A stretch of 20,734 nt of DNA, taken from a virus. The position numbers were made by a program, and so were the translations under genes. The notes below the pieces were generated by a model that was given only the letters and a program-made list of their open reading frames with translations, had not been told where the DNA came from and searched no databases. Positions 5,205-20,659 of this stretch are shown here, piece after piece (the stretch's first letter is position 1; every line of letters starts with the position of its first letter). The stretch lies in the IMG/VR virus record IMGVR_UViG_3300029448_000552, positions 1-20,734 of that record; one strand, written 5' to 3'.

Positions 5205-7086
5205 CCAGATTACGTTCCTAAACAGGTTGGATTTGGACACGATTGAGAAGGACTGGGTGCCGCCAGAGGTATTTCCAGACCTGCGCGATTGTAAGTTCAT
5301 GGCTATCGACTTGGAGACTAGTGATCCTAACCTTACGACCCTAGGTCCAGGGTGGGCACGAGGTGATGGTTTCATCGTTGGTGTGGCGATTGCTGCCGGA
5401 GACTTTGTTGGTTACTACCCCATTGCACATGAGGGCGGCGGTAACATTCCACAGAACAAGGTCATGAAGTGGCTGGCAGAACAGCTTGCCACGCCTGACA
5501 TTCCAAAGGTTATGCATAACGCCACCTATGATGCTGGCTGGTTGCGGTGGGCAGGAGTCAAGATCCAAGGAAAGATTATCGACACTATGATAGCCGCGCC
5601 ACTGCTGAACGAGAACAGGTTTAGCTACAGCCTAAACAATCTGGCTAAAGATTATCTGGATGAGCGTAAAGACGAAAGAACACTTCGTGCTGCGGCGGCA
5701 GATTATGGCATTGATCCCAAGGCAGAGATGTGGCGGCTCAACTCACGGTTTGTGGGTGCATATGCCGAGAAGGATGCCGAACTTACACTCAAGCTGTGGA
5801 ATCATTTCAAGGTCGAACTGCAACAGCAAAGCCTTATGGATGTGTTTGACTTAGAAACATCCTTGATACCAGTCATGCTGGACATGCGAGAGAAAGGCGT
5901 AAAGGTAAATGTCGATGGCGCGGAGATGGCTAAGAAGAAACTCGTAGAGTTAAAGAAGGGCGTTACTTACGATATTCAGCATGAAACAGGCGTAAAGATA
6001 GAGCCGTGGGTGGCAAGAAGCGTAGCATCTGTGTTTGATCATTACGGAATATATTACAACAGGACAGAAAACAACGGACAGCCCTCCTTTACCAAAGCGT
6101 TCCTGCAAGCCTGTCCCCATCCTATCGCGGCAAAGGTCTTGCGGTTGCGTGAACTAGACAAGGCAACCAATACATTCATCGACAACATCCTCAAGTTTGC
6201 ACATAACGGACGCATACATTGCGAGTTTCATCAGCTTCGATCTGACGATGGTGGCACGGTCACAGGGAGATTTTCGTCTAGCAACCCAAACCTCCAGCAA
6301 ATCCCTGCACGAGATCCAGAAATTAAGGCCATGATCCGTGGACTATTTGTACCAGACGAGGGGTGCAAGTGGGGCAGCTTTGACTATTCAAGCCAAGAGC
6401 CAAGGCTCTTGGTACATTGGTGCGCTAGTGTAGGTAAGAAGTACCGGAGTCCAATGATTGACGAAGTTGTTGCCGAGTATCATCGAGGCGATGCTGACTT
6501 TCATCAGATGGTGGCTGACATGGCAGGTATTAGCCGCAAGCAGGCAAAGACCGTCAATCTGGGTATCATGTATGGTATGGGCGTGGGTAAACTGTCACAT
6601 ACGATGGATATTGATACGAAGGAGGCCAAGGAACTCTTGAACACTTACCATGACAAAGTTCCCTTTGTAAAAAGTCTGGCTGACCTGGTATCGACTCAAG
6701 CCAGCAAGTTTGGACAGATACGAACGATATCAGGACGGATGTGTCGGTTTGATATGTGGGAGCCAAGAACATTTGGCTATAACAAGCCCATGAAGCGCGA
6801 GGAGGCCGAGAAAGAGTACGGACCTGTATTGCGTAGGGCTTTTACTTACAAGGCTCTGAACAGGCTTATACAGGGTTCTGCGGCAGATCAAACCAAGGTT
6901 GCTATGGCAGAGTGCTACAAGGAGGGGCTGGTGCCCTTGCTGACGGTGCATGACGAACTTTGTTTCAATGTCGAGTCCGAGGAGCAAGCGTCAAAAATCA
7001 AGGAAATCATGGAGACAAGCATGGAACTCAAGGTGCCAAGCAAGGTGGATCAGGAGTTGGGAGACAACTGGGGGCAGGTAGGATGA
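5188..7086 (+). CDS. polA: Family A DNA polymerase with 3'-5' exonuclease (Leu762-type)
   Basis: 632 residues, the replicative polymerase. The proofreading domain has Exo I AIDLETSD (D41, E43), Exo II NATYDAGWL (N111, D115) and Exo III YAEKDAE (Y192, D196). The polymerase domain has motif A FDYSSQEPR (D399, E404, R406) and motif B RKQAKTVNLGIMYG (R450, K454, L458, Y462). QGSAAD follows at 562-567, and motif C is VHDEL (H588, D589). There is no 5'-3' exonuclease domain, as usual in phages. Leucine 458 (codon at 6559-6561) stands where E. coli Pol I has Phe762. Motif A reads SQ where Pol I has QI after DYS. The Shine-Dalgarno sequence GGAGGA (5175-5180) supports the start, and the gene overlaps the previous one by 17 bases. 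No DnaJ-like Cys insert is seen between the two domains. Confidence 0.96.
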   Translation: MAKESSQITFLNRLDLDTIEKDWVPPEVFPDLRDCKFMAIDLETSDPNLTTLGPGWARGDGFIVGVAIAAGDFVGYYPIAHEGGGNIPQNKVMKWLAEQLATPDIPKVMHNATYDAGWLRWAGVKIQGKIIDTMIAAPLLNENRFSYSLNNLAKDYLDERKDERTLRAAAADYGIDPKAEMWRLNSRFVGAYAEKDAELTLKLWNHFKVELQQQSLMDVFDLETSLIPVMLDMREKGVKVNVDGAEMAKKKLVELKKGVTYDIQHETGVKIEPWVARSVASVFDHYGIYYNRTENNGQPSFTKAFLQACPHPIAAKVLRLRELDKATNTFIDNILKFAHNGRIHCEFHQLRSDDGGTVTGRFSSSNPNLQQIPARDPEIKAMIRGLFVPDEGCKWGSFDYSSQEPRLLVHWCASVGKKYRSPMIDEVVAEYHRGDADFHQMVADMAGISRKQAKTVNLGIMYGMGVGKLSHTMDIDTKEAKELLNTYHDKVPFVKSLADLVSTQASKFGQIRTISGRMCRFDMWEPRTFGYNKPMKREEAEKEYGPVLRRAFTYKALNRLIQGSAADQTKVAMAECYKEGLVPLLTVHDELCFNVESEEQASKIKEIMETSMELKVPSKVDQELGDNWGQVG

Positions 7087-7148: not shown

Positions 7149-7583
7149 CGCCCTCATCCGGTCTACCAAACGCCTAGCTCGGTTCGGAACTTGCGTATAC
7201 CATCTGGAATCAACCATCTCATCAGCTGCGGCGTTCCAGTCCCTGGCATCAACGCCAGCCTTCATACCCTTGAATTTGGAAAGACGCGGCCTGCCCATAT
7301 TAAACATCATATTGCAAATGATGTGCTGCACCTCTTCAGGCAGGTCGTCAAAGTCCTCGTAAAGAACTTTGCACTCGTCAATCGTTACCGCCATGTCTAA
7401 TGCAAACAGTTGACGCACACGTTCTTGTTCAACAACCGTACCCACGGATTTGCCGTGTTCTTCGTCAGACTCAAGAATGAGGTGACCAATTCCACAGGTT
7501 GGCAAATTTAAGTGATCTAAATATATCTCGTACTTGCATCCTTCGTCTTCCGCGATCTCCTCGCGTAATCTATCTTTGTTCAT
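7134..7583 (-). CDS. T4-type lysozyme (GH24 muramidase)
   Basis: 149 residues. It aligns by eye with T4 lysozyme: IAEDEG (E14, matching catalytic Glu11), IYLDHLNLPTCGIGH (D23 matching Asp20, T29 matching Thr26, H34 matching His31), and SRWYTQVPNRARR near the C-terminus, matching T4 SRWYNQTPNRAKR. It hydrolyses the beta-1,4 bond between MurNAc and GlcNAc. No signal peptide, signal-anchor or cell-wall-binding domain is present. It is the last gene of the minus-strand operon. Its ATG overlaps the stop of the 1083-residue ejection-like protein as ATGA, with the Shine-Dalgarno sequence GGAAGGA inside the last codons of that gene. It could be the endolysin or a virion-borne lysozyme; no clear holin gene lies beside it on the same strand. 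Confidence 0.93.
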   Translation of the reverse strand: MNKDRLREEIAEDEGCKYEIYLDHLNLPTCGIGHLILESDEEHGKSVGTVVEQERVRQLFALDMAVTIDECKVLYEDFDDLPEEVQHIICNMMFNMGRPRLSKFKGMKAGVDARDWNAAADEMVDSRWYTQVPNRARRLVDRMRALAED

Positions 7584-10500
7584 GGTGTTGTCCTTCCAAG
7601 ACTCTGCGCCAGTGCGGCTGTCGCAGGGTCAGGTAATAAGATTGGTGAAACTCCTCCAGCCGCACCAGGCTGTACGTTTGGTGCTTGAGTCATGGCTGTC
7701 TGAGCCGTCTGTAATGCTTGATTGGCTACAGGAGCGATCTGTTGTCTAGCCGCCGCTGTCACAGGGCGTACCTCTTCAGCCGTTTGCTCTACGCTCATGC
7801 GTGTGCCCTGAACCGTTGCCGCTGATGTCAACTGCCACATGGTTTGGAATCCTTGTGCAATCGGATCGTTAGACTTGAATTTACCAGACAAAAATTGTTT
7901 GACTGTGTTTGGTTGCCGCGAAGCCATCATCATCTTCAACACTTTCGGATTACGAAGTGCAACCGACATTACTTTAAATGCCACTGCCGTAGGAAGTGTA
8001 GCAAGAGGATTCATAATCAAACTGGCAACACCAAGACCAAGTGCAATGTTTGGTGCAGCAAGACCACCTTTGCCAGCAATCGAGGCGTTAGACGCACGAA
8101 CCATAGTCTCTGCCATGGCGTTCAATCCTTCGGCGGCACCCTTACCAAACATGGTGTTAAGTGTTTCGTCACCATAGGATCGGAGAACAGACTGTAGTTT
8201 GTTGCCCAGCCTGCCAGTCTTGAAGGACTCAACAAAGTCATCTGTCATACGGATCTGTCCAGCTTCGTCCACCGTAGCACCGATTTGCTTCAGGACTCTG
8301 CCCATGGCGGCATCGCGCACTAGTTCCATGGTTGGAACTTCACGACCATTGACGTTAGTTACCCTGTTGCCAAGAAACTTCTGCGCCTCTCGGATTGAGG
8401 CGGGGTTTCTGAATACGGTTTGCGCGATTACTTCAGGGTCGGTGGTTGACTGTAGCGTGCGGAGAACAACGTTGCTATCTACCGCTGCACGCCGCGCTTC
8501 TGCCGCTTGTAGATCTTTCAAAGCCTGACCAAGTGGCTTGCTTTGTAACTGTTGAATGATCCCTGGAGAAAGATTGGCCTTGCCTCGTTCCAGAACCGTC
8601 AGGATATCATTGACACTCTTCAAGTCATCGCCAAGGAGCTTGTCTACGGTTGTGCCCTTCTGCCTGATGTTCGCTACCAGCTTAATAGGGTCGATGACCT
8701 CGACTCCTGTAGCAGGGTCGATGGTCAAGGAGCGTTTGACTTGCTCCTGTAGATACATTTTAGACAGCCCCTGACGCACCGCTTCAGCTTGCTCGGCTCC
8801 TGTGCCACGGATTGTAGCACGCTCGGCAGCTTCAGCTTCGATCTCACGAGCCTGTTTTTCAACCATCATACGAGTACGATTATTAGCAGGTAGATCTTTC
8901 ACTGCTTCCAAAGCCTCTTCTACAGTACGAGTTCCAATAGTACGAGACTTTAGTATTCGTGTGCCCTCTGCAAGATCCACGATTCCAGTCTCTGCACCCA
9001 AGGCTTTACCTGTTGGTGCACCACGAATGGCCTTGAATAACTGATCTAGTGCCTCTGGATTGTCCTCTTGTATAATTTTGTCGAACACAAACTTCATGTT
9101 CATCTGACCAGATTTAGTCTGCTTTATAATGTCTTGGACAACGATGTTATCAAATCTACTAATACTGTCTTTGTAGAAGTCATTTGTTCTGTTCAATAAC
9201 CGTAATGCCTCACTTGCTTCACCCGTTGATAAATCCATTTTAAAACCATCAGGTCTGATGATTTTATCTCCCGCACGAGCAACTCCGGTCTCTAAACCTT
9301 GTGTAGACATTTGACCAAGCGTAATCTCCGCATCTGTAAACGCCTTATTAACAGATGCTTTTAGTGCGCCTAATGCACCTACGTTGACATCATTAAGAAG
9401 AGCTGGGTTGCGAGAAGCGTCAGTCAAGCCTGTACGAATACGAGACAGTTCTCTTGCTGTAGCGTAATCACCAAGACCTTTTACTTGTGAAGCAAACCGA
9501 GTTGCTCCAATATCCGCGATGCTATCCGTTGTTAATCGCTTCAACTCTTCTTTTATTCCAGCGGTTGGAATAATTGCTTGATTACGCAACTTATCATTGA
9601 CCACCGTATACAGGCGATCAACGTCTTCATCAAACACGGATTTGCGCTGACGAATCATATCATCAAGGTTCTTAGGAATGGTCGTGCCATCCTTTAAGTT
9701 TTTCATGATTTGGTCAATCTCACCTTTGACCGCATCGTCCATACGCATCTGTGCGTTAGCCAGCTTTTGATCCGAGGTAGAGTAAAAGTTATCAATGTCA
9801 CGCTTTACAATCTCGTCAAGATTGTTAATGGCTGTATCATCTGCAATTCCAAACGCACGCAATTGCGCCAGAGATTGCTCAAGGTTCTCCATCGCCGCCT
9901 TTTGATTCGGGAACACACCTTCATAGACAGCTTGAAGACGATTCAAGACTGGACGGAATGCTTCGTCTGTAGCACCAGCAATCGTGGGACGAAAACCCTG
10001 ACTAATTACTTCACGAGCCTGTGCACGCAAAGCCTCGTTCTCCGCACCCCCTGGACCTTTGATGATTCGACCAAATAGTTTAGAGACGCCTCGACCCACG
10101 CCCTCACCAAACATACCAAAGGCACCCTCTATGGCACTATCACGAGCAATGTCTGTGGGAGATTGCATCTGCAATCCTTCGGCAGCCTCGATGCCCTCAT
10201 CAAGTATTTTGCCTCCAGCGGTAGCGGCACCTACGATCAACATGCCTGGTACAAATCCTACACCAGACGCGGCAATCGCGGCACCTGTGCCAGCAAGAAT
10301 TGGCAACGCGGTTGCGCCAGCAAATTCTTTCACATCGTTAAACGAGAAACCTTCTTCGTCTACTGCAAGTTCACGGCCTTCACCCAAGCCAAGTTTAGTA
10401 CGCCCGTCCTGTGTCAGGATATGACGACCAAGCGCATCTACACGAAATCCCTCGTCACCAACTACCGTCTTTAGATAGTTGGACTTCTCCTCATCCGTGT

Positions 10501-10831
10501 CCATGCGACCAAATTGAAAGCGCGAGAACCCAGCAACACTATCTAAACCTGTGCGGTAATCGACACCAGGTTCTTTGTACTTGCTGACGTATTCGTCCTC
10601 GGTGATCTGACCACCCGTAACAGGATCTACACCAGCAAGTCTTGCCTGACGAGCATAGTCACGAATTTCTTCGACACTTGCTGTCGCTAAGTCAACTTCG
10701 CCAACTGTAGGTTGTTCTGATTGAAACAACTGAAAAAGCGTATCAAGCTCTTGTTGTGTTGGATCATCACCAGCAATTTCAACTTGCTCAATAGTTTTTG
10801 TAAAGGGGTTTTCAATTTTGACTATTGCCAT
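7580..10831 (-). CDS. Large internal virion / DNA-ejection protein (presumptive)
   Basis: 1083 residues, the largest gene here. I recognise no enzymatic domain. A glycine/alanine-rich hydrophobic stretch at about 171-207 (e.g. ATALPILAGTGAAIAASG) and another at about 920-962 (e.g. NIALGLGVASLIMNPLA) could insert in membranes. The long middle is charged and alpha-helical with coiled-coil character, and the last 60 residues are Ala/Gln/Pro-rich. Size, composition and position between other virion genes and a lysozyme resemble the ejection proteins of podoviruses (T7 gp15/gp16, P22 gp16/gp20), which build a channel through the cell envelope for DNA entry. This is inference from context. It starts three bases after the previous stop, with GGGG as weak Shine-Dalgarno, and overlaps the lysozyme gene by four bases. 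Confidence 0.7.
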   Translation of the reverse strand: MAIVKIENPFTKTIEQVEIAGDDPTQQELDTLFQLFQSEQPTVGEVDLATASVEEIRDYARQARLAGVDPVTGGQITEDEYVSKYKEPGVDYRTGLDSVAGFSRFQFGRMDTDEEKSNYLKTVVGDEGFRVDALGRHILTQDGRTKLGLGEGRELAVDEEGFSFNDVKEFAGATALPILAGTGAAIAASGVGFVPGMLIVGAATAGGKILDEGIEAAEGLQMQSPTDIARDSAIEGAFGMFGEGVGRGVSKLFGRIIKGPGGAENEALRAQAREVISQGFRPTIAGATDEAFRPVLNRLQAVYEGVFPNQKAAMENLEQSLAQLRAFGIADDTAINNLDEIVKRDIDNFYSTSDQKLANAQMRMDDAVKGEIDQIMKNLKDGTTIPKNLDDMIRQRKSVFDEDVDRLYTVVNDKLRNQAIIPTAGIKEELKRLTTDSIADIGATRFASQVKGLGDYATARELSRIRTGLTDASRNPALLNDVNVGALGALKASVNKAFTDAEITLGQMSTQGLETGVARAGDKIIRPDGFKMDLSTGEASEALRLLNRTNDFYKDSISRFDNIVVQDIIKQTKSGQMNMKFVFDKIIQEDNPEALDQLFKAIRGAPTGKALGAETGIVDLAEGTRILKSRTIGTRTVEEALEAVKDLPANNRTRMMVEKQAREIEAEAAERATIRGTGAEQAEAVRQGLSKMYLQEQVKRSLTIDPATGVEVIDPIKLVANIRQKGTTVDKLLGDDLKSVNDILTVLERGKANLSPGIIQQLQSKPLGQALKDLQAAEARRAAVDSNVVLRTLQSTTDPEVIAQTVFRNPASIREAQKFLGNRVTNVNGREVPTMELVRDAAMGRVLKQIGATVDEAGQIRMTDDFVESFKTGRLGNKLQSVLRSYGDETLNTMFGKGAAEGLNAMAETMVRASNASIAGKGGLAAPNIALGLGVASLIMNPLATLPTAVAFKVMSVALRNPKVLKMMMASRQPNTVKQFLSGKFKSNDPIAQGFQTMWQLTSAATVQGTRMSVEQTAEEVRPVTAAARQQIAPVANQALQTAQTAMTQAPNVQPGAAGGVSPILLPDPATAALAQSLGRTTP

Positions 10832-10834
10832 GTT

Positions 10835-13099
10835 TTACCCCAAATTGTAACGAATAATGCCGTCATCGCCTCTGGTGGCTCCAGTCTGTGTCGTGACTAG
10901 CTGACCATCTACATATACACCAGCACCTTTGCCGCCCCCAGCTCTCAAGCCTGCTTCTTGTAGTCGCCGTTGATCTTCTGACAAAAGACTTGCCGCTGAT
11001 CTATCTGTGCCAGGCTGTAGCAATGGAGTCAAGAATTGCTCCGTAGTTTTCATCGTAGAAAACGCTGACTTTTGAGAATTTCTCATTTTCCCAATGGCTC
11101 TTTGCATCCGTTTCACCAAATCAGTTTCAGTTTCCGCTGCAAACGTTAAGATGCCACCGTTAAGTGCCCCCGCACCAAAATATGCTTCAATCAAGAAATC
11201 AACGTCTCTGTTTGAAATAGAGTTAGCAGTTTGCGTTGATCCAAGAGTTACAGGAATAACGTCTTGTAATGCCGCTCTCATTGCATCTCTAACAGCTTTC
11301 TTGTCTCCATATTCTTCAGATAAATCCATGTTTAAGAAGGCTCCACCTCCTCTTACCATGTCTTTAAAGACACCTGTCATACCCGTTACATTACCATCAG
11401 TTACAGTAACCATGGCACCTTCAAGTAACGCGATACCAGACTCTGAATCAATCGCGGTTGTGACAGCTTTACTGTATTTTTCTATTTGCTTAGTATACTC
11501 GGCAGGAGTAATTTTTTTCTGGTCAAGTGCTGCTTTTAATGCTGCTGCATTTGCTGTTGCTTTGTTTTTTAACGCTGTTACGCCAGATGTTCCAAGAATG
11601 TTTGGAGGAAAAGATCCGGCTTTTAAATCACCCTTAGAAATAAATACAGACTCACCCTCGGCATGATTTCTGCCTTTATATGTCGTGCCACCTTGACCAA
11701 CAACCATCTCTACAACATCAGCATCGGCTCTTTTAACAGCACGTTCTTCTGCACTGATTTTGCTCGTTTCAGTCAATCCATACTGCAACGCGGACAGCTT
11801 CAACTGACGATTAAACTCGTCCTTCTTCGCCTTATCCTTGATTAACATGTCTGCACCATCACTCATGGCAGATGCGATGTTTTCTATGGCGTTAGGACTT
11901 TTACCCGCTGCCATAGCAAAGCCAATCTTGGCAAGTATCAAACCACTGTTTGCACTCTCGTAGCCTGGTGCCTTGTCCATAAACTCTTTGATAAACCCAT
12001 CCAGAGTGCTTTGTTGCTCTTCTTTAGTGCCACTGTTTATGACACGTTCAATTTCTTTTTTAGGATTGACATCATCTGTTGTAGTGCCGTCCTGTGTGCT
12101 TGGTGTAGCATCATCCTCGCCACCGTCATCAACGGTTGGCTTTGTTTCTATGAGAAAATCTGGCTGTTCATCTATCTCAACAGCGTCAGGATCCACATCA
12201 TCTACTGGTATTAAATCTTTCCTTGGTTCAACTAAATCATCAATTGACTCACCCTTAACTCTAACGGTTTGTGAACCAGGTGCCGCGTTCATGATCTCTA
12301 CTACATCCGCTACTTCTTGATTCTTTTGAAAGCCAGATAACTTAGCTAAATCAATGCCCGTTGAGTCTACTTTACCAGATAAGAGAGCCTCAGAAAGAGC
12401 CGTAGGAACAGAAATTTCACGATTATTAATTCTTTGTTTTACGCTGTCTGGCAGTGTTTGTTTTCCAGACACCACGGCATTAACAAAACCAGGAGTTAAC
12501 TCTTCACTAGCAAGTGGTGCAAGTAGATTACCAATAGCATCCATGGTGGTGGCAACTCCACCAACAACTGCATCTACAGGAGTTGCTGCCGCTTCAAGTA
12601 AATCACTACGAGTTTGTTGGCCTACAGTCATTGGATTTGGAGTGGTGACCACGGACTTTAATCCACCACCGTAGAAATCTCTTATGCTTTGTTTTGGTGC
12701 GGGGGTTCTTGACAAAATAGAACCAATGCCTGACAGAGAACTTGGGTCTAGGTTGATCGCGCCTGATCCCGCGTCCATGGTTTGACGTAGGGGGGCAGTC
12801 CCACGACCTTGAAGAACGTTCATTCGTGCGTTAAGTGTGGGCGAAGCATTTCTTGCTGCATTGATAGCTTGAGCATTAATTGATGAAACAGGGGTTTGTG
12901 AGTTATTCCCGCGAAGTGCGTTAAATACTCCACTAAAACTATTTGGAGCGTTCATAAACCTTTGAAGCATGTTTCCTTGATGAGTGTGCCCCACAGGACC
13001 ACCAGCATGAAACTTTTGAACAGGCATAATACCCGCCGCTCTGTTCAAAGCATTACGGGCGTTACGAGGCTTGAACATCTTACGATTAAGCACGCTCAT
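10835..13099 (-). CDS. Presumptive internal virion protein with acidic disordered middle
   Basis: 754 residues. The N-terminus is basic (KMFKPRNARNALNRAAG, residues 8-24) and leads into GIMPVQKFHAGGPVGHTH (23-40). Residues about 270-345 are strongly acidic and Asp/Thr/Pro-rich, probably disordered. Residues about 350-450 are helical, with AKIGFAMAAGKSPNAIENIA, a segment I associate with internal proteins of marine phages. The C-terminal part is alpha-helical with Gly-rich loops (RAGGGKGAGVYVDG). I see no catalytic motif. The start overlaps the upstream stop as ATGA. Local base composition is AT-richer than its neighbours in parts, with T/A runs around 11460-11660, which may reflect separate acquisition. 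The most likely role is a core or ejection protein; a structural tail protein is the alternative. Confidence 0.65.
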   Translation of the reverse strand: MSVLNRKMFKPRNARNALNRAAGIMPVQKFHAGGPVGHTHQGNMLQRFMNAPNSFSGVFNALRGNNSQTPVSSINAQAINAARNASPTLNARMNVLQGRGTAPLRQTMDAGSGAINLDPSSLSGIGSILSRTPAPKQSIRDFYGGGLKSVVTTPNPMTVGQQTRSDLLEAAATPVDAVVGGVATTMDAIGNLLAPLASEELTPGFVNAVVSGKQTLPDSVKQRINNREISVPTALSEALLSGKVDSTGIDLAKLSGFQKNQEVADVVEIMNAAPGSQTVRVKGESIDDLVEPRKDLIPVDDVDPDAVEIDEQPDFLIETKPTVDDGGEDDATPSTQDGTTTDDVNPKKEIERVINSGTKEEQQSTLDGFIKEFMDKAPGYESANSGLILAKIGFAMAAGKSPNAIENIASAMSDGADMLIKDKAKKDEFNRQLKLSALQYGLTETSKISAEERAVKRADADVVEMVVGQGGTTYKGRNHAEGESVFISKGDLKAGSFPPNILGTSGVTALKNKATANAAALKAALDQKKITPAEYTKQIEKYSKAVTTAIDSESGIALLEGAMVTVTDGNVTGMTGVFKDMVRGGGAFLNMDLSEEYGDKKAVRDAMRAALQDVIPVTLGSTQTANSISNRDVDFLIEAYFGAGALNGGILTFAAETETDLVKRMQRAIGKMRNSQKSAFSTMKTTEQFLTPLLQPGTDRSAASLLSEDQRRLQEAGLRAGGGKGAGVYVDGQLVTTQTGATRGDDGIIRYNLG

Positions 13100-17116: not shown

Positions 17117-18187
17117 TTATAACTCCGCATCAAATTCTACACGCTTAAACTCATAGTTACCATTTGACTGACCGGGAACGTGTAAAATAAGCCCTCTAGT
17201 TACTGTGGCATAGTTTGCCGTTTGTACTGTTTCATAATCAGTGTTAGTAGAATCACGGGCTTTTCCAGATTCAGCTTTATCATCTGCCCCATAAACAGTG
17301 AAAGCGGGTAGACTTCGCATTTCAGTAGAAAACGGAAAATTCCACCATATTTGTGCGTCCACTGGTCCCTGCACTGCCCACATTGTTCTGTCATCGTTAG
17401 AAGGCATGAAAAAGTACCGCTGACACTTGGCTAACGTAGTTCCTATGTCCTCATGCTCAAAAGGCGTGGCTACTTCTCCGATTTCAAATTGTACGCCTGT
17501 CAGGTAGAAGTTGTTGCTGGTGTTATCAAAGAAATTTACTTGTCCAACAAATCTATTTGCATCTGTTTGGTTTTGCCAAGTTGTAGCTAGTGAACCACTT
17601 GTGTGGTCTGTACCTGACATCAATACCCATTGGACATAAAAAGTAGCAGCGTTATCATTATCAGTCGCTATAGATGTATCACCTGAAAAAGTTAGTGTTT
17701 TATATTCCCAAGTGTCAGCCTGATTAATTGTGTACTGATGACTTTGAGTTCTGGCAGTAGAATCAGCGTGATAAATATCAACAACGTAAATTCCAGTTTT
17801 TGTTGAACGTACCCAGAATGATATGGTTAAAGATTTTGCTCCTGATGTGCCATACGCTAGTCTTTGAAGGTTTTGACCCTCAATAATTTGCCTTAGAAGG
17901 GCAACTTCTGCTGCGCCAACAGAAGAATCTACAGTTGTGCAGTCTACTAAAATGCTGTTGTTAAAACCTTGCCCAGAAGGAACCACTGTAGATTGTTGTA
18001 AATTAGCAGCTAACGCACCGCTGTTGTGATACATATTCCAACGGTCAACAAAATATACGGCAGAACCATTACTTGCGGTTTGATTGCCACGTTGATGAAC
18101 TGTTGCTGCACCGTTGATAATCAGATTTTTATTACCCTGCGCCTGTTGCCCACCAATCAGCGCGGCTAATTCTGCTGCTTTACTCAT
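17117..18187 (-). CDS. Tail fibre / carbohydrate-binding receptor protein
   Basis: 356 residues. The N-terminus MSKAAELAALIGGQQAQG resembles short N-terminal segments of marine phage fibres. It is followed by NLIINGAATVHQRGN (21-35) and YFVDRWNMYH (45-54), the common NxxInG … W/HQRG … DRW start of phage fibre domains with a jelly-roll, carbohydrate-binding-like fold. Residues about 118-225 are beta-strand rich (LTISFWVRSTKTGIYVVDIY). FYLTGVQFEIGEVATPFEHE (227-246) and CQRYFF (255-260) are also standard in such fibres. The C-terminal 95 residues probably form the receptor-contacting head. The ATG overlaps the previous stop (ATGA), with Shine-Dalgarno GGAGA lying in that gene's GDLA codons. Confidence 0.8.
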   Translation of the reverse strand: MSKAAELAALIGGQQAQGNKNLIINGAATVHQRGNQTASNGSAVYFVDRWNMYHNSGALAANLQQSTVVPSGQGFNNSILVDCTTVDSSVGAAEVALLRQIIEGQNLQRLAYGTSGAKSLTISFWVRSTKTGIYVVDIYHADSTARTQSHQYTINQADTWEYKTLTFSGDTSIATDNDNAATFYVQWVLMSGTDHTSGSLATTWQNQTDANRFVGQVNFFDNTSNNFYLTGVQFEIGEVATPFEHEDIGTTLAKCQRYFFMPSNDDRTMWAVQGPVDAQIWWNFPFSTEMRSLPAFTVYGADDKAESGKARDSTNTDYETVQTANYATVTRGLILHVPGQSNGNYEFKRVEFDAEL

Positions 18188-18558
18188 GCTAGGTCTCCTA
18201 GAATTGATAATGAAATATTAGTACAATCAGTTTTTGTGCTGTCATCTCTAATAGTTCCAATGCGTAAAGACCCAGCCGCTTTTGACGCAATGCTAACACC
18301 TAGTCCTGCTCCCCCATCTGCTAGAGAAGCACCAATAGGATGAGAATAGTTTGCTGAACCCATGTCTGAGGAGATTGCAAATGTATAATCTCCTGTTCCA
18401 TTATCTGTTGTACTGGCAAGATTAAATGAATCAGATGCTGCTGCACCCGCATTTGAAATAGCCCAGCATTTCGCACTACCCCCCGCAACAAAGCTAGTAG
18501 CCACGCTGTTATTACCGCTTGCATCCTTTAATGTATTAACTCTAAGTTCGCTTGCCAT
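18184..18558 (-). CDS. GDLA-ending short fibre module, copy D
   Basis: 124 residues, the shortest of four related proteins. It begins MASELRVNTLKDASGNNSV, has the family core SDSFNLASTTDNGTGDYTF (42-60) and SDMGSANYS (64-72), and ends ILGDLA. Unlike copies A and C it lacks the LQQGLAKAW segment, keeping only AKCWAISNAG at about 29-38. The composition (Ser, Thr, Gly, Asn, Ala; almost no Lys) suits an extracellular beta-structured fibre or decoration protein. It starts at a TAATG junction with copy C and ends as ATGA with the larger fibre gene. Family membership is seen; a receptor-binding role is inferred from position. Confidence 0.72.
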   Translation of the reverse strand: MASELRVNTLKDASGNNSVATSFVAGGSAKCWAISNAGAAASDSFNLASTTDNGTGDYTFAISSDMGSANYSHPIGASLADGGAGLGVSIASKAAGSLRIGTIRDDSTKTDCTNISLSILGDLA

Positions 18559-18998
18559 TACGCTAGGTCTCCATGTATTGTACAGAGTGCTAAATATACA
18601 TCAAGCTCTTGCAGATCAGAACTTGTACCTAGGCTATATCCTCCCGTCCAACTGGTAGCAGAAGTGCTATAAACTACAGTTCCTTTTGAAGTAGGCCAAA
18701 GCCAATAAGCTGTAGAAGATGTTGCGCCATATCTAGCAGAATGACCAGCACCAACGTAATCATCATTAGCAAAATTGTTTGTATAATTGGTAGTTGTTTG
18801 ACCCGAACCTGTATCACTTAAACTGGCTACATTAAGACTATCTCGCACTGTATGGCTTGAAGATTGTTCAAAGTTACACCAAGCCTTTGCCAACCCCTGC
18901 TGAAGATTAGTCGTGGTTGAGTTGCCCTCGCCAGTGACTGCAATAGAACCAGCGGTGGTTACACCTGTCAGGGTATCTACTTTTAGAATACTAGCCAT
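18558..18998 (-). CDS. GDLA-ending short fibre module, copy C
   Basis: The open frame extends to an ATG at 19016, but I choose 18998 (MASILKVDTLTGVTTAGSIA, 146 residues). That start matches the MAS-x-L-x-V-[DN]-T-L opening of copy D, forms a TAATG junction with the previous gene, and has GGAGA at the right distance. The core is NLQQGLAKAWCNF (31-43) and VRDSLNVASLSDTGSG (51-66). Its distal half is richer in Tyr and Trp (TAYWLWPTSKG, TSWTGGYSLG) than in the other copies, as expected for a diversified receptor-contact region. It ends CTIHGDLA. Family membership is seen; a fibre role is inferred. Confidence 0.74.
   Translation of the reverse strand: MASILKVDTLTGVTTAGSIAVTGEGNSTTTNLQQGLAKAWCNFEQSSSHTVRDSLNVASLSDTGSGQTTTNYTNNFANDDYVGAGHSARYGATSSTAYWLWPTSKGTVVYSTSATSWTGGYSLGTSSDLQELDVYLALCTIHGDLA
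18886..18902 (-). repeat. 17-base direct repeat, copy in fibre module C
   Basis: CAGCAGGGGTTGGCAAA on the minus strand encodes QQGLAK. It is identical to 20176-20192 in copy A, about 1.3 kb away, although the flanks have diverged. Identical third-codon positions suggest recent duplication or recombination between the modules. Confidence 0.8.
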
Positions 18999-19408
18999 TA
19001 TGCAAGGTCTCCACAACTATGTACAGCTACTCTGCTTTCATCTGCATTTGAATGAGATGAGTTATAACAAGCAATATTAAGTGTTCCTACGGCGTTAGCC
19101 GCATCATTAACCGCATGATACGCACCAGAACCTTCAATAGAAGCGTGATTGGCATTTGAAAAATCATTGTTAATATTCACTGTATAGTTACCTGTCCCTG
19201 AGTCTGTAAAACTACTTACGTTAAATGAATCTAGTTCTCCAAAACTACTACCATTAAATTTCGCCCACACTTTAACTAGACTTTGCACGGTGTTCTGCGT
19301 AGCACTGCCACCATCAGCTACATAGGTAGATGTATTAGCCATCTTGACATTAGAGCCGCCAGAGCCAGCTTTATCTACAATGGTATCTACATTTAACTGA
19401 CTGGTCAT
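18998..19408 (-). CDS. GDLA-ending short fibre module, copy B
   Basis: The frame is open to 19420, but the ATG at 19408 (MTSQLNVDTIVDKAGSGG, 136 residues) is preferred. It overlaps the upstream stop as ATGA and has GGAG seven bases upstream, and the N-terminus then lines up with copies C and D (…L-x-V-[DN]-T). The core is VQSLVKVWAKFNG (41-53) and LDSFNVSSFTDSGTGNYTV (59-77), followed by NNDFSNANHAS. It ends HSCGDLA. Compared with copy A the segment LQQGLAKAW has become VQSLVKVW. Function is presumed to be as for the other copies: a small beta-rich tail-fibre or decoration protein. Confidence 0.74.
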   Translation of the reverse strand: MTSQLNVDTIVDKAGSGGSNVKMANTSTYVADGGSATQNTVQSLVKVWAKFNGSSFGELDSFNVSSFTDSGTGNYTVNINNDFSNANHASIEGSGAYHAVNDAANAVGTLNIACYNSSHSNADESRVAVHSCGDLA

Positions 19409-19863
19409 ACGATACTCCAATATCCGTTAACAGTAACGGTGGCAGACTGCGTTATAGGACCGCCAGATACGCCATTCTCATCACTATCAATCGTGATGTC
19501 TGCGCTGATGGTTTGCCCATTCAAGCGGATGATGCTGTTATTGCCTTTGAATGGATAGCGTGTATCACTCTCTGTCTTGGTGTAACTGCTGGATATAGCA
19601 AAGGTGTCATAGACCACCATCTCAACCACATCGTTAAGTGATGCGCCTGTAACCAGTACAACCGTTGTACCTGTCGTAGCGGCATAGTCAGTTCCAGGCT
19701 TGAGAAGCACCCCGTTCTGATAAACATCCATATACAGGCTATCCGTATATTTCAATGTTTTCGCATCACCATCAGATCCACTAAAGCTAGTTTGACCAGC
19801 CGTGGCTTGATACACGAAGCGGTTACGAACACCGAACTCTGGGGATTTACCTATATATGGCAT
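19405..19863 (-). CDS. Short tail-fibre adaptor protein
   Basis: 152 residues. The start MPYIGKSPEFGVRNRFVYQA, then TAGQTSFSGSDG (21-32), YMDVYQNGVLLKPGTDYAAT (44-63) and VVYDTF (83-88), is the standard opening domain of many podoviral fibres, related in style to the tail-attachment part of T7 gp17-type fibres. YTKTESDTRYPFKGNN (94-109) is a coiled or trimeric connector motif. The end, GPITQSATVTVNGYWSIV, is a usual fibre C-terminus. So it looks like a complete minifibre, a tail adaptor with almost no distal shaft. It begins at a TAATG junction after copy A and splits the GDLA array. Its last codons TGG AGT supply the GGAG for copy B. Confidence 0.8.
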   Translation of the reverse strand: MPYIGKSPEFGVRNRFVYQATAGQTSFSGSDGDAKTLKYTDSLYMDVYQNGVLLKPGTDYAATTGTTVVLVTGASLNDVVEMVVYDTFAISSSYTKTESDTRYPFKGNNSIIRLNGQTISADITIDSDENGVSGGPITQSATVTVNGYWSIV

Positions 19864-20276
19864 TATGCGAGGTCTCCCATAAAGTGCATCTCATTTGCCG
19901 CATTGTCATATTCTGTTAAACCACCAACAGTTCCAGCGTCATAACCTGTCGTTATTCTTATAGTCCCTGTAGTTTTTGTGTTAGAACCAAATTGCCTAGT
20001 ATTAAATGCAGCAACAGCACTACCACCGCTATACGCAGAAGATGCATAATTTGCGTTGTTAAAAGAATTTGTGTACGCAAGGGTGTAATCGCCTGTTCCA
20101 TTATCAGTTACGCTTGCATGATTAAAACTGTCACGGGCGGCAGGTGTGCCTTGACCATTAAAATTAATCCACGCTTTTGCCAACCCCTGCTGCAAAGAAG
20201 TAGTTACAGCACCGCCCTCAGAAGTGACAGTGTTACTGGCACCAATACCTGTGCCTATTACTTGAGTCAGTGCCAT
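19863..20276 (-). CDS. GDLA-ending short fibre module, copy A
   Basis: 137 residues. Its N-terminus (MALTQVIGTGIGASNTVTS) differs from the MAS-x-L-x-V type of copies C and D. The core is TSLQQGLAKAWINFNGQG (26-43), RDSFNHASVTDNGTGDYTL (48-66) and NSFNNANYASS (70-80), and it ends MHFMGDLA. The core shares exact or near-exact DNA with copies C and D. Its Shine-Dalgarno sequence is AAGGAAA, 6 bases before the ATG, in an 11-base gap after the upstream gene. It is the first gene of the array. Fibre or decoration function is inferred from position and composition. Confidence 0.74.
   Translation of the reverse strand: MALTQVIGTGIGASNTVTSEGGAVTTSLQQGLAKAWINFNGQGTPAARDSFNHASVTDNGTGDYTLAYTNSFNNANYASSAYSGGSAVAAFNTRQFGSNTKTTGTIRITTGYDAGTVGGLTEYDNAANEMHFMGDLA
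20176..20192 (-). repeat. 17-base direct repeat, copy in fibre module A
   Basis: Same sequence as 18886-18902. Copy A also shares a 20-base segment with one mismatch (20086-20105) with copy D (18386-18405), encoding DNGTGDY. The array therefore has DNA-level as well as protein-level repetition. Confidence 0.8.
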
Positions 20277-20287
20277 AACTTATTTCC

Positions 20288-20659
20288 TTATGCGTAAGGG
20301 CTTGTACCCAACACAGATGTATCCCAAGCTGCTTTTAGCTTTGCGATTGTATCTGCATCGCTAATTGCAGAAGCGGCTGGTGCATCACGCAATGCCTTCT
20401 TCTTATTTACAGAGTTGGTCTTTGCAGTAGCATCATCAGCTTCAAGAGCCTTCATGTACACGACATCCTCTGCATCAAGCAGTGGTGCGCGAACTTCACG
20501 GATTTTACTCTGAAAGATCTTTTTTGCTTCTGTCATGTCCTCAGAGATGACTTTACCACTCAAAGTCCATGCTCCACGAAAATGGCGGTCAGATGGAACG
20601 GTAGCTGTTGAAGCATCAATTTGATTACCGTCCTTGTCTACGATATATGTTGTTGCCAT
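20288..20659 (-). CDS. Phage tail accessory / fibre-assembly-type protein
   Basis: 123 residues, mainly helical. VPSDRHFRGAWTLSGKVISE (21-40) followed by the helix DMTEAKKIFQSKIREVRAPLL (41-61, ending in RAPLL) and KKKALRDAP (86-94) is a widespread phage pattern: R-x-A-W … D-x-x-x-A … I-R-x-x-R-x-P-L-L … K-x-x-L-R-D. Proteins of this type lie beside tail-fibre genes and are often called tail-assembly chaperone-like, without direct proof. Shine-Dalgarno AGGAGAAA stands directly before the ATG. The gene lies 11 bases before copy A of the fibre array, in the same operon. Confidence 0.68.
   Translation of the reverse strand: MATTYIVDKDGNQIDASTATVPSDRHFRGAWTLSGKVISEDMTEAKKIFQSKIREVRAPLLDAEDVVYMKALEADDATAKTNSVNKKKALRDAPAASAISDADTIAKLKAAWDTSVLGTSPYA

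Follow-up and report, generated by a model that had tools for sequence, protein, structure and literature searches.

Terminal codons of receptor-knob genes as a probable ribosome-binding site and exchange joint in a fibre array of HMO-2011-like marine phages

Why do neighbouring fibre genes of one phage end on the same four codons, and are these kept for the peptide, for the gene that follows, or for both? The question is raised by the IMG/VR viral record IMGVR_UViG_3300029448_000552, of which we analyzed positions 1 to 20,734 (this whole stretch of 20,734 nucleotides is hereafter the window). Four genes on its minus strand, modules A (19863..20276, 137 amino acids), B (18998..19408, 136 amino acids), C (18558..18998, 146 amino acids) and D (18184..18558, 124 amino acids), all end in Gly-Asp-Leu-Ala (GDLA). 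Read on the minus strand, their exits are GGAGACCTCGCATAATG for A (19861..19877), GGAGACCTTGCATAATG for B (18996..19012), GGAGACCTAGCGTAATG for C (18556..18572) and GGAGACCTAGCATGA for D, the joint of D with the following fibre gene being GGAGACCTAGCATG(A) at 18185..18198. All have the form GGA-GAC-CTN-GCN and are fused to the next ATG, with GGAGA placed 9 nt before it at the A, B and C exits and 6 nt at the D exit. An earlier note on this DNA had described these genes and exits as they are found here, and had called the modules a tandem array; the four modules and their exits are indeed present, but they are not contiguous, an unrelated fibre open reading frame (ORF), X (19405..19863), lying between A and B, so that the genes follow one another as A, X, B, C, D, fibre. 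The explanation that we consider probable is that the window carries a slot-ordered array of knob genes belonging to HMO-2011-like marine phages, in which the GDLA codons are the ribosome-binding site (RBS) of the next gene, and in which blocks starting at these codons recombine so as to swap knobs.

We asked how general the GDLA exit is. All four modules match PHROG 11355 (tail fiber protein), with E values of 8e-18 for A, 1.5e-10 for B, 5.6e-14 for C and 2.3e-8 for D, over about 100 of the 131 profile positions; none of them has a match in Pfam. Loci were fetched from IMG/VR (L followed by a number, below) by means of internal peptides of A to D, so that the C-terminal codons were not selected for. 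A profile built from A to D then gave 706 distinct closed genes of the family, 638 of them ending in GDLA and 16 in GELA. When the 60 residues that precede the tail were clustered at 45% identity, 456 of the 500 resulting C-terminal clusters ended in GDLA. The bases GGAGAC..GCATAATG of this 12-nt exit carry up to 2.0 bits each, compared with some 0.2 bits for the bases just upstream. On both counts, the conservation of the exit lies far beyond chance.

A separate scan for GGAGACCTNGCNTAATG found it in at least 120 contigs; among the matches listed, single contigs had as many as five joints, and 422 of the 429 joints assignable to an ORF came from the phrog_11355-type family. The GDLA exit belongs almost entirely to one domain family, and the idea that it serves as the joint of all array genes was rejected, other families having endings of their own. 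Fibres of another domain family carry the GGAGACCTNGCNTAATG exit at four loci, namely L350 (joint at 7067), L358 (3505), L387 (8566) and L410 (minus strand, about 5331); these ORFs end approximately in W-x-x-[IFV]-GDLA, possibly by convergence. Arrays with GDLA or close variants were also seen in L440 and L443, two contigs that are filed under bacterial metagenome-assembled genomes (MAGs; Bacteroidetes and Cohaesibacteraceae) and look like phage sequence.

Codon choice points to the ribosome as a first source of constraint. The terminal Gly codon is GGA in 621 of the 638 GDLA genes (97%), compared with 24% elsewhere in the same genes, and the terminal Asp codon is GAC in 546 of them (86%, compared with 32% elsewhere). 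These biases support the conclusion that the choice of both codons follows the RBS. The comparison with internal GDLA that had been proposed in the earlier note gave the same picture, internal copies at the same loci being mostly GGT-GAT. Stop and ATG overlap in 621 of the 638 genes (TAATG in 407, ATGA in 214), and 449 of 465 overlapping joints have GGAG 6-9 nt before the ATG, most of the remainder having GGGGA. Departures at Asp usually retain GGAG, as in GELA (GGAGAA), GGLA (GGAGGC) and GALA (GGAGCT), and in GSLA (GGG AGT) GGAG is retained through a register shift. In L289 and L098, an early stop makes the protein end in HR or VR, and GGAGACYT still precedes the next ATG.

Could the RBS then be all that is selected, GDLA being the by-product of one reading frame of GGAGACYTNGCA, with no role in the protein? 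The departures that preserve the Shine-Dalgarno (SD) sequence, the two loci L289 and L098 that have the RBS without the peptide, and the outgroup fibres, which end in FR, FSS or FGN without GDLA, all speak for this. Yet the Leu codon, seen as CTC, TTA, CTA, CTT and TTG, is variable at bases 1 and 3 and never becomes a Phe codon: among 461 cluster representatives, we observed no Phe at this position, for about 76 expected if both bases were free (Fisher p ~3e-62). Departures from the consensus were synonymous in 273 cases and non-synonymous in 4 at Leu, and synonymous in 23 and non-synonymous in 4 at Ala, which is kept although the first two bases of its codon lie outside the SD sequence. Moreover, an RBS at that place does not need GDLA, since in the phage HMO-2011 gp38 and gp30 also have one inside their last codons, at the same spacing and in other peptides (PEKP, encoded by CGGAGAAACCATAATG, and EDFS, encoded by GAGGACTTTAGTTAATG). 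Conversely, L157, L124 and L141, which look like one lineage, have lost GGAGA (AGTGATTTGGCA, Ser-Asp-Leu-Ala) and kept Asp-Leu-Ala, with a new RBS, TAGGAGAYATGATG, after the stop. The absence of Phe codons disfavours a pure by-product of the RBS, and we hold this explanation to be unlikely, although it is the best of those that compete with ours. The Gly and Asp codon bias, together with an almost purely synonymous Leu variation devoid of Phe, rather supports a double constraint, in which one stretch of 12 bases is kept both for its role as RBS and for encoding Leu-Ala. This agrees with the two-way constraint put forward in the earlier note, and neither of the contrary outcomes it had named, other Gly or Asp codons before a next gene and absence of GDLA from most homologues, occurred.

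The two halves of the tail may differ in age. A search of the genome collection with A returned 17 loci, most of them single fibres that end differently, and single fibres of the family in other phages end in FGD, IGDQ, FGN or FR, some of them (L435, L441) already having GGAGAC as a possible RBS. Both the Gly-Asp endings and these GGAGAC sequences suggest that Gly-Asp is older, and Leu-Ala an extension specific to arrays. Single fibres with a GDQ end were seen in L441, L438 and L447, the end of L441, GGAGACCAATAATG, being a second peptide with the same RBS and overlap. A Flavobacteriales MAG contig, L446, has five fibres of the family whose FGN ends contain GGGAAT or GGCAAT but lack GGAG; its host phylum is known for making little use of SD sequences.

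We next compared 894 joints pairwise, over a stretch reaching from 260 nt before the next ATG to 520 nt after it and with the position of the break left unconstrained. In 1217 pairs, unrelated DNA gave way to DNA of at least 95% identity, and in 1192 of them this switch fell between -40 and 0. It peaked at -14 for TAATG joints and at -11 for ATGA joints, i.e. at the first G of GGAGAC. As for the reverse switch, from identical to unrelated, 514 of 536 pairs had it between +80 and +160. With either leader length, most of these second edges lay no more than 12 nt from the Lys codon of a K-x-W motif, at which the knob starts. Both edges were visible in 407 pairs, which display an isolated block with a median length of 120 nt (5-95%: 100-138) and unrelated bodies on either side. 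Such a block contains the RBS, the stop/start overlap and the first 28-40 codons of the next gene, its leader. Shared leaders differ by only 6% at third codon positions, which indicates that they are recent copies. The joint had been proposed in the earlier note to be portable, and the one GDLA exit does precede 68 N-terminal types, unrelated families among them, but the unit that is shared is the whole block of about 120 nt, and the tetrapeptide is only its 5' end.

In the window, one such block joins the exit of B to the leader of C (18877..19012, minus strand) and is 85-96% identical in many relatives whose flanking bodies are different; the matches of these relatives begin at position 1723 of the reverse complement (rc), the first G of GGAGAC. 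A second one joins the exit of C to the leader of D (18470..18572, minus strand; rc 2163-2265). The window is a mosaic with respect to relatives such as L021, L208 and L274, which match it in the gene before A, in X and the start of B, and in the blocks from the GGAGAC of B and of C, and do not match it in the knob bodies. As leaders are near-identical while the bodies on both sides are unrelated, we infer that knobs are exchanged, and as the block ends where the predicted lectin-like knob begins, this would take place domain by domain. The bodies that follow the MSKAAELA leader vary, some being a long fibre, others a TPDFQG-type protein or a knob, which suggests that very short leaders are exchanged too.

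The earlier note had spoken of modules inserted, lost or shuffled, but the order of the slots is strongly fixed, and the modules are therefore mostly replaced in place. The B leader is followed by a C-type leader in 138 of 143 cases, the C-type by a D-type leader in 149 of 169, and the D-type by the MSKAAELA gene in 143 of 162; departures, with modules that moved slots, were seen in L005, L277 and L356. Free shuffling as the main mode was rejected, given this nearly fixed order.

The double constraint, the block edges, the replacement of knobs and the order of slots are displayed by the sequence comparisons themselves, and the mechanism that we propose builds on them. Each gene would consist of a slot-specific N-terminal leader of 28-40 residues, a hypervariable lectin-like knob of about 100 residues and the GDLA tail. 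The codons GGA-GAC-CTN-GCA would double as the SD site for the gene that follows; since the ATG of this gene also overlaps the stop, neighbouring genes are probably translationally coupled. The 12 nt and the next leader would together form the block of about 120 nt, nearly identical between phages, and this near-identity makes homologous recombination inside blocks the most likely way of swapping one whole knob each time. Such a swap would leave the frame, the stop/start overlap and the RBS intact. Selection on the protein would maintain Leu-Ala, which would also set the spacing to the ATG.

Several points weigh against this mechanism. The left edge at GGAGAC is also where conservation sets in for nearly all members of the family, and alone it does not place the crossovers. 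Pairs are not phylogenetically independent, about 180 left-edge cases being non-overlapping, and the Leu result could be inflated by the shared descent of a few haplotypes. Finally, the data are mostly metagenome contigs, and assemblers can misjoin at shared blocks. Shared descent may go further, and account for most of the conservation, if the joint owed its spread to gene conversion or recent duplication and selection were slight at both levels. The near-identical leaders are in line with this, as is the use of CTC in 42% of exits, compared with a 5% background, as expected for a spreading haplotype; this excess may have no explanation other than shared descent. However, the 12 nt exist as 40 haplotypes in the 461 cluster representatives, with departures nearly confined to synonymous Leu changes, and they are kept even though the flanking bodies are less than 45% identical. 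We therefore consider it quite improbable that descent is the main cause.

Assembly chimeras formed at shared blocks about as long as a short read have a slightly lower probability still. The block length of 100-138 nt is indeed close to that of short reads, the sources are metagenomes, and 47 of the 407 pairs with two visible edges have exact runs of at least 99 nt. Yet only 9 of the 407 pairs have a block free of mismatches, the 398 others having mismatches inside it, and in 301 pairs the longest exact run is below 77 nt. Moreover, HMO-2011, an isolate, has the same joints with bodies of its own: the leader of its gp29 is up to 87% identical to environmental leaders, and its body 24-28%, which is the chance level. 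A minority of pairs may all the same be chimeric, chimeras formed with small k-mers included. Programmed switching is another explanation: a DNA invertase or a diversity-generating retroelement would vary the knobs inside a single phage, and variable receptor genes in tandem are what these systems typically act on. But whole domains rather than scattered codons are exchanged here, and in the window, a 20.7-kb fragment, we found neither shufflon-like inverted repeats around the modules nor, in the main ORFs searched, a recombinase, invertase or reverse transcriptase, which makes programmed switching very improbable.

What would be exchanged by recombination inside the blocks resembles a known type of receptor-binding domain. 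The AlphaFold monomer of D has a pLDDT (predicted local distance difference test score) of 85.7, a last strand at 114-120, and, for a monomer only, a GDLA tail that is ordered (block mean 87), L123 being part of a bridge. Its body, from residue 28 of module D (within 18184..18558, minus strand), is predicted to fold like the receptor-binding domain of the Pam1 tailspike (Z 8.8) and the C-terminus of the phiAB6 tailspike (Z 8.6), and more weakly like H-type lectins (Helix agglutinins, Z 6-6.5) and the knob of the R1 pyocin fibre (5.8). These Z values are modest, and the model of C (maa79c674488c, AF2; pLDDT 74.9, strands from residue 39 and a last strand at 136-143) is weaker, with a Z of 6.0. 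Predicted viral proteins of the same fold include long tail fibres of cyanophages, and in the wider knob family Gly-Asp terminates the last beta strand. By predicted fold, the modules thus resemble H-type lectin-like or tailspike C-terminal knobs, and they presumably bind a receptor. A sequence search against solved structures gave only chance-level matches, and a family-profile search of the genome collection returned no relatives.

The closest known array is that of the Puniceispirillum phage HMO-2011 (NC_021864, gp28-gp41). In the same gene order, A, X and B have their counterparts in gp34, gp33 and gp32, D and the following fibre gene in gp29 and gp28, and the same GDLA exits are found in gp40, gp37, gp34, gp32 and gp29; the slot of C is occupied in HMO-2011 by a C1q-domain gene (gp31) and a small gene (gp30). 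The annotation of its record speaks of tail fiber proteins, with no word of the joint. The replication and structural genes of the window are most similar to those of phages such as 023Pt_psg01, DSL-LC04, HTVC023P and HTVC027P. Since the array is nearest to HMO-2011 and these genes are nearest to other phages, phages of different types probably have the array in common.

Around the modules, and all on the minus strand, the gene before A (20288..20659) belongs to phrog_20196, with a weak match to the tail fibre assembly family phrog_4912, and is the counterpart of gp35. X, which starts with MPYIGKSP, matches phrog_18345 (E 9e-5); it ends in WSIV, encoded by TGGAGTATCGTATGA, and supplies its own GGAG (TGG AGT) directly 5' of the ATG of B. 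The fibre gene after D (17117..18187), which starts with MSKAAELA, matches the C-terminal part of phrog_4492 (E 5.7e-55). In the structural half of the window, two large proteins of 1083 and 754 amino acids (7580-10831 and 10835-13099, both on the minus strand) have no match in PHROG nor, at its cut-off, in Pfam, and the former has none in the phage collection.

The joint is best seen as a variant of two known arrangements, translational coupling and boundary-sequence recombination. With the first it shares the stop/start overlap (TAATG, ATGA), an SD sequence within the upstream gene and an SD spacing of 6-9 nt; it differs from ordinary coupling in that the tail coding for the SD sequence is nearly invariant across hundreds of divergent upstream C-termini, and in its separate amino acid constraint. 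As to the second, it has been proposed that mosaic phages recombine at conserved boundary sequences, but most mosaic boundaries show none (PMC3029335). Such joints, like the block, are short conserved gene-boundary sequences between exchanged modules that general recombination can use, but the block spans two genes, takes in the final codons of the upstream gene along with an RBS, is found again at several slots, and has a far edge that coincides with a domain boundary. Compared with tailspike or R-pyocin knobs and H-type lectins, whose fold the body of D is predicted to share, the modules are free-standing genes of about 125-150 amino acids in series, with a short leader and no long fibre or catalytic spike. 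Among near-identical marine phages, host-recognition genes (tail fibre, C1q, lectin-like) are reported as the most variable in the passages of a study of metaviromic islands (PMC3909814), which describe under-recruiting islands and no module joint. We found no published account of the GDLA joint, and none combining GDLA, phage and tail fiber, in a search that left most subscription journals outside and is therefore a weak negative.

The joint can be located to the exact base, since it starts at the RBS within the upstream gene and ends where the knob starts, and domain exchange in an abundant phage group thereby becomes measurable from metagenomes. The constraints that RNA and protein place on the same 12 bases are separable by codon analysis, and testable at the bench. 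More tentatively, and with somewhat less than even chances in our estimation, Leu-Ala could be a C-terminal signal, for instance for closure of the knob trimer or for a fibre chaperone, that is demanded of any knob entering the array, the block of about 120 nt being a standard part for the trade of knobs. If so, abundant ocean phages would trade receptor knobs while keeping both expression and assembly intact.

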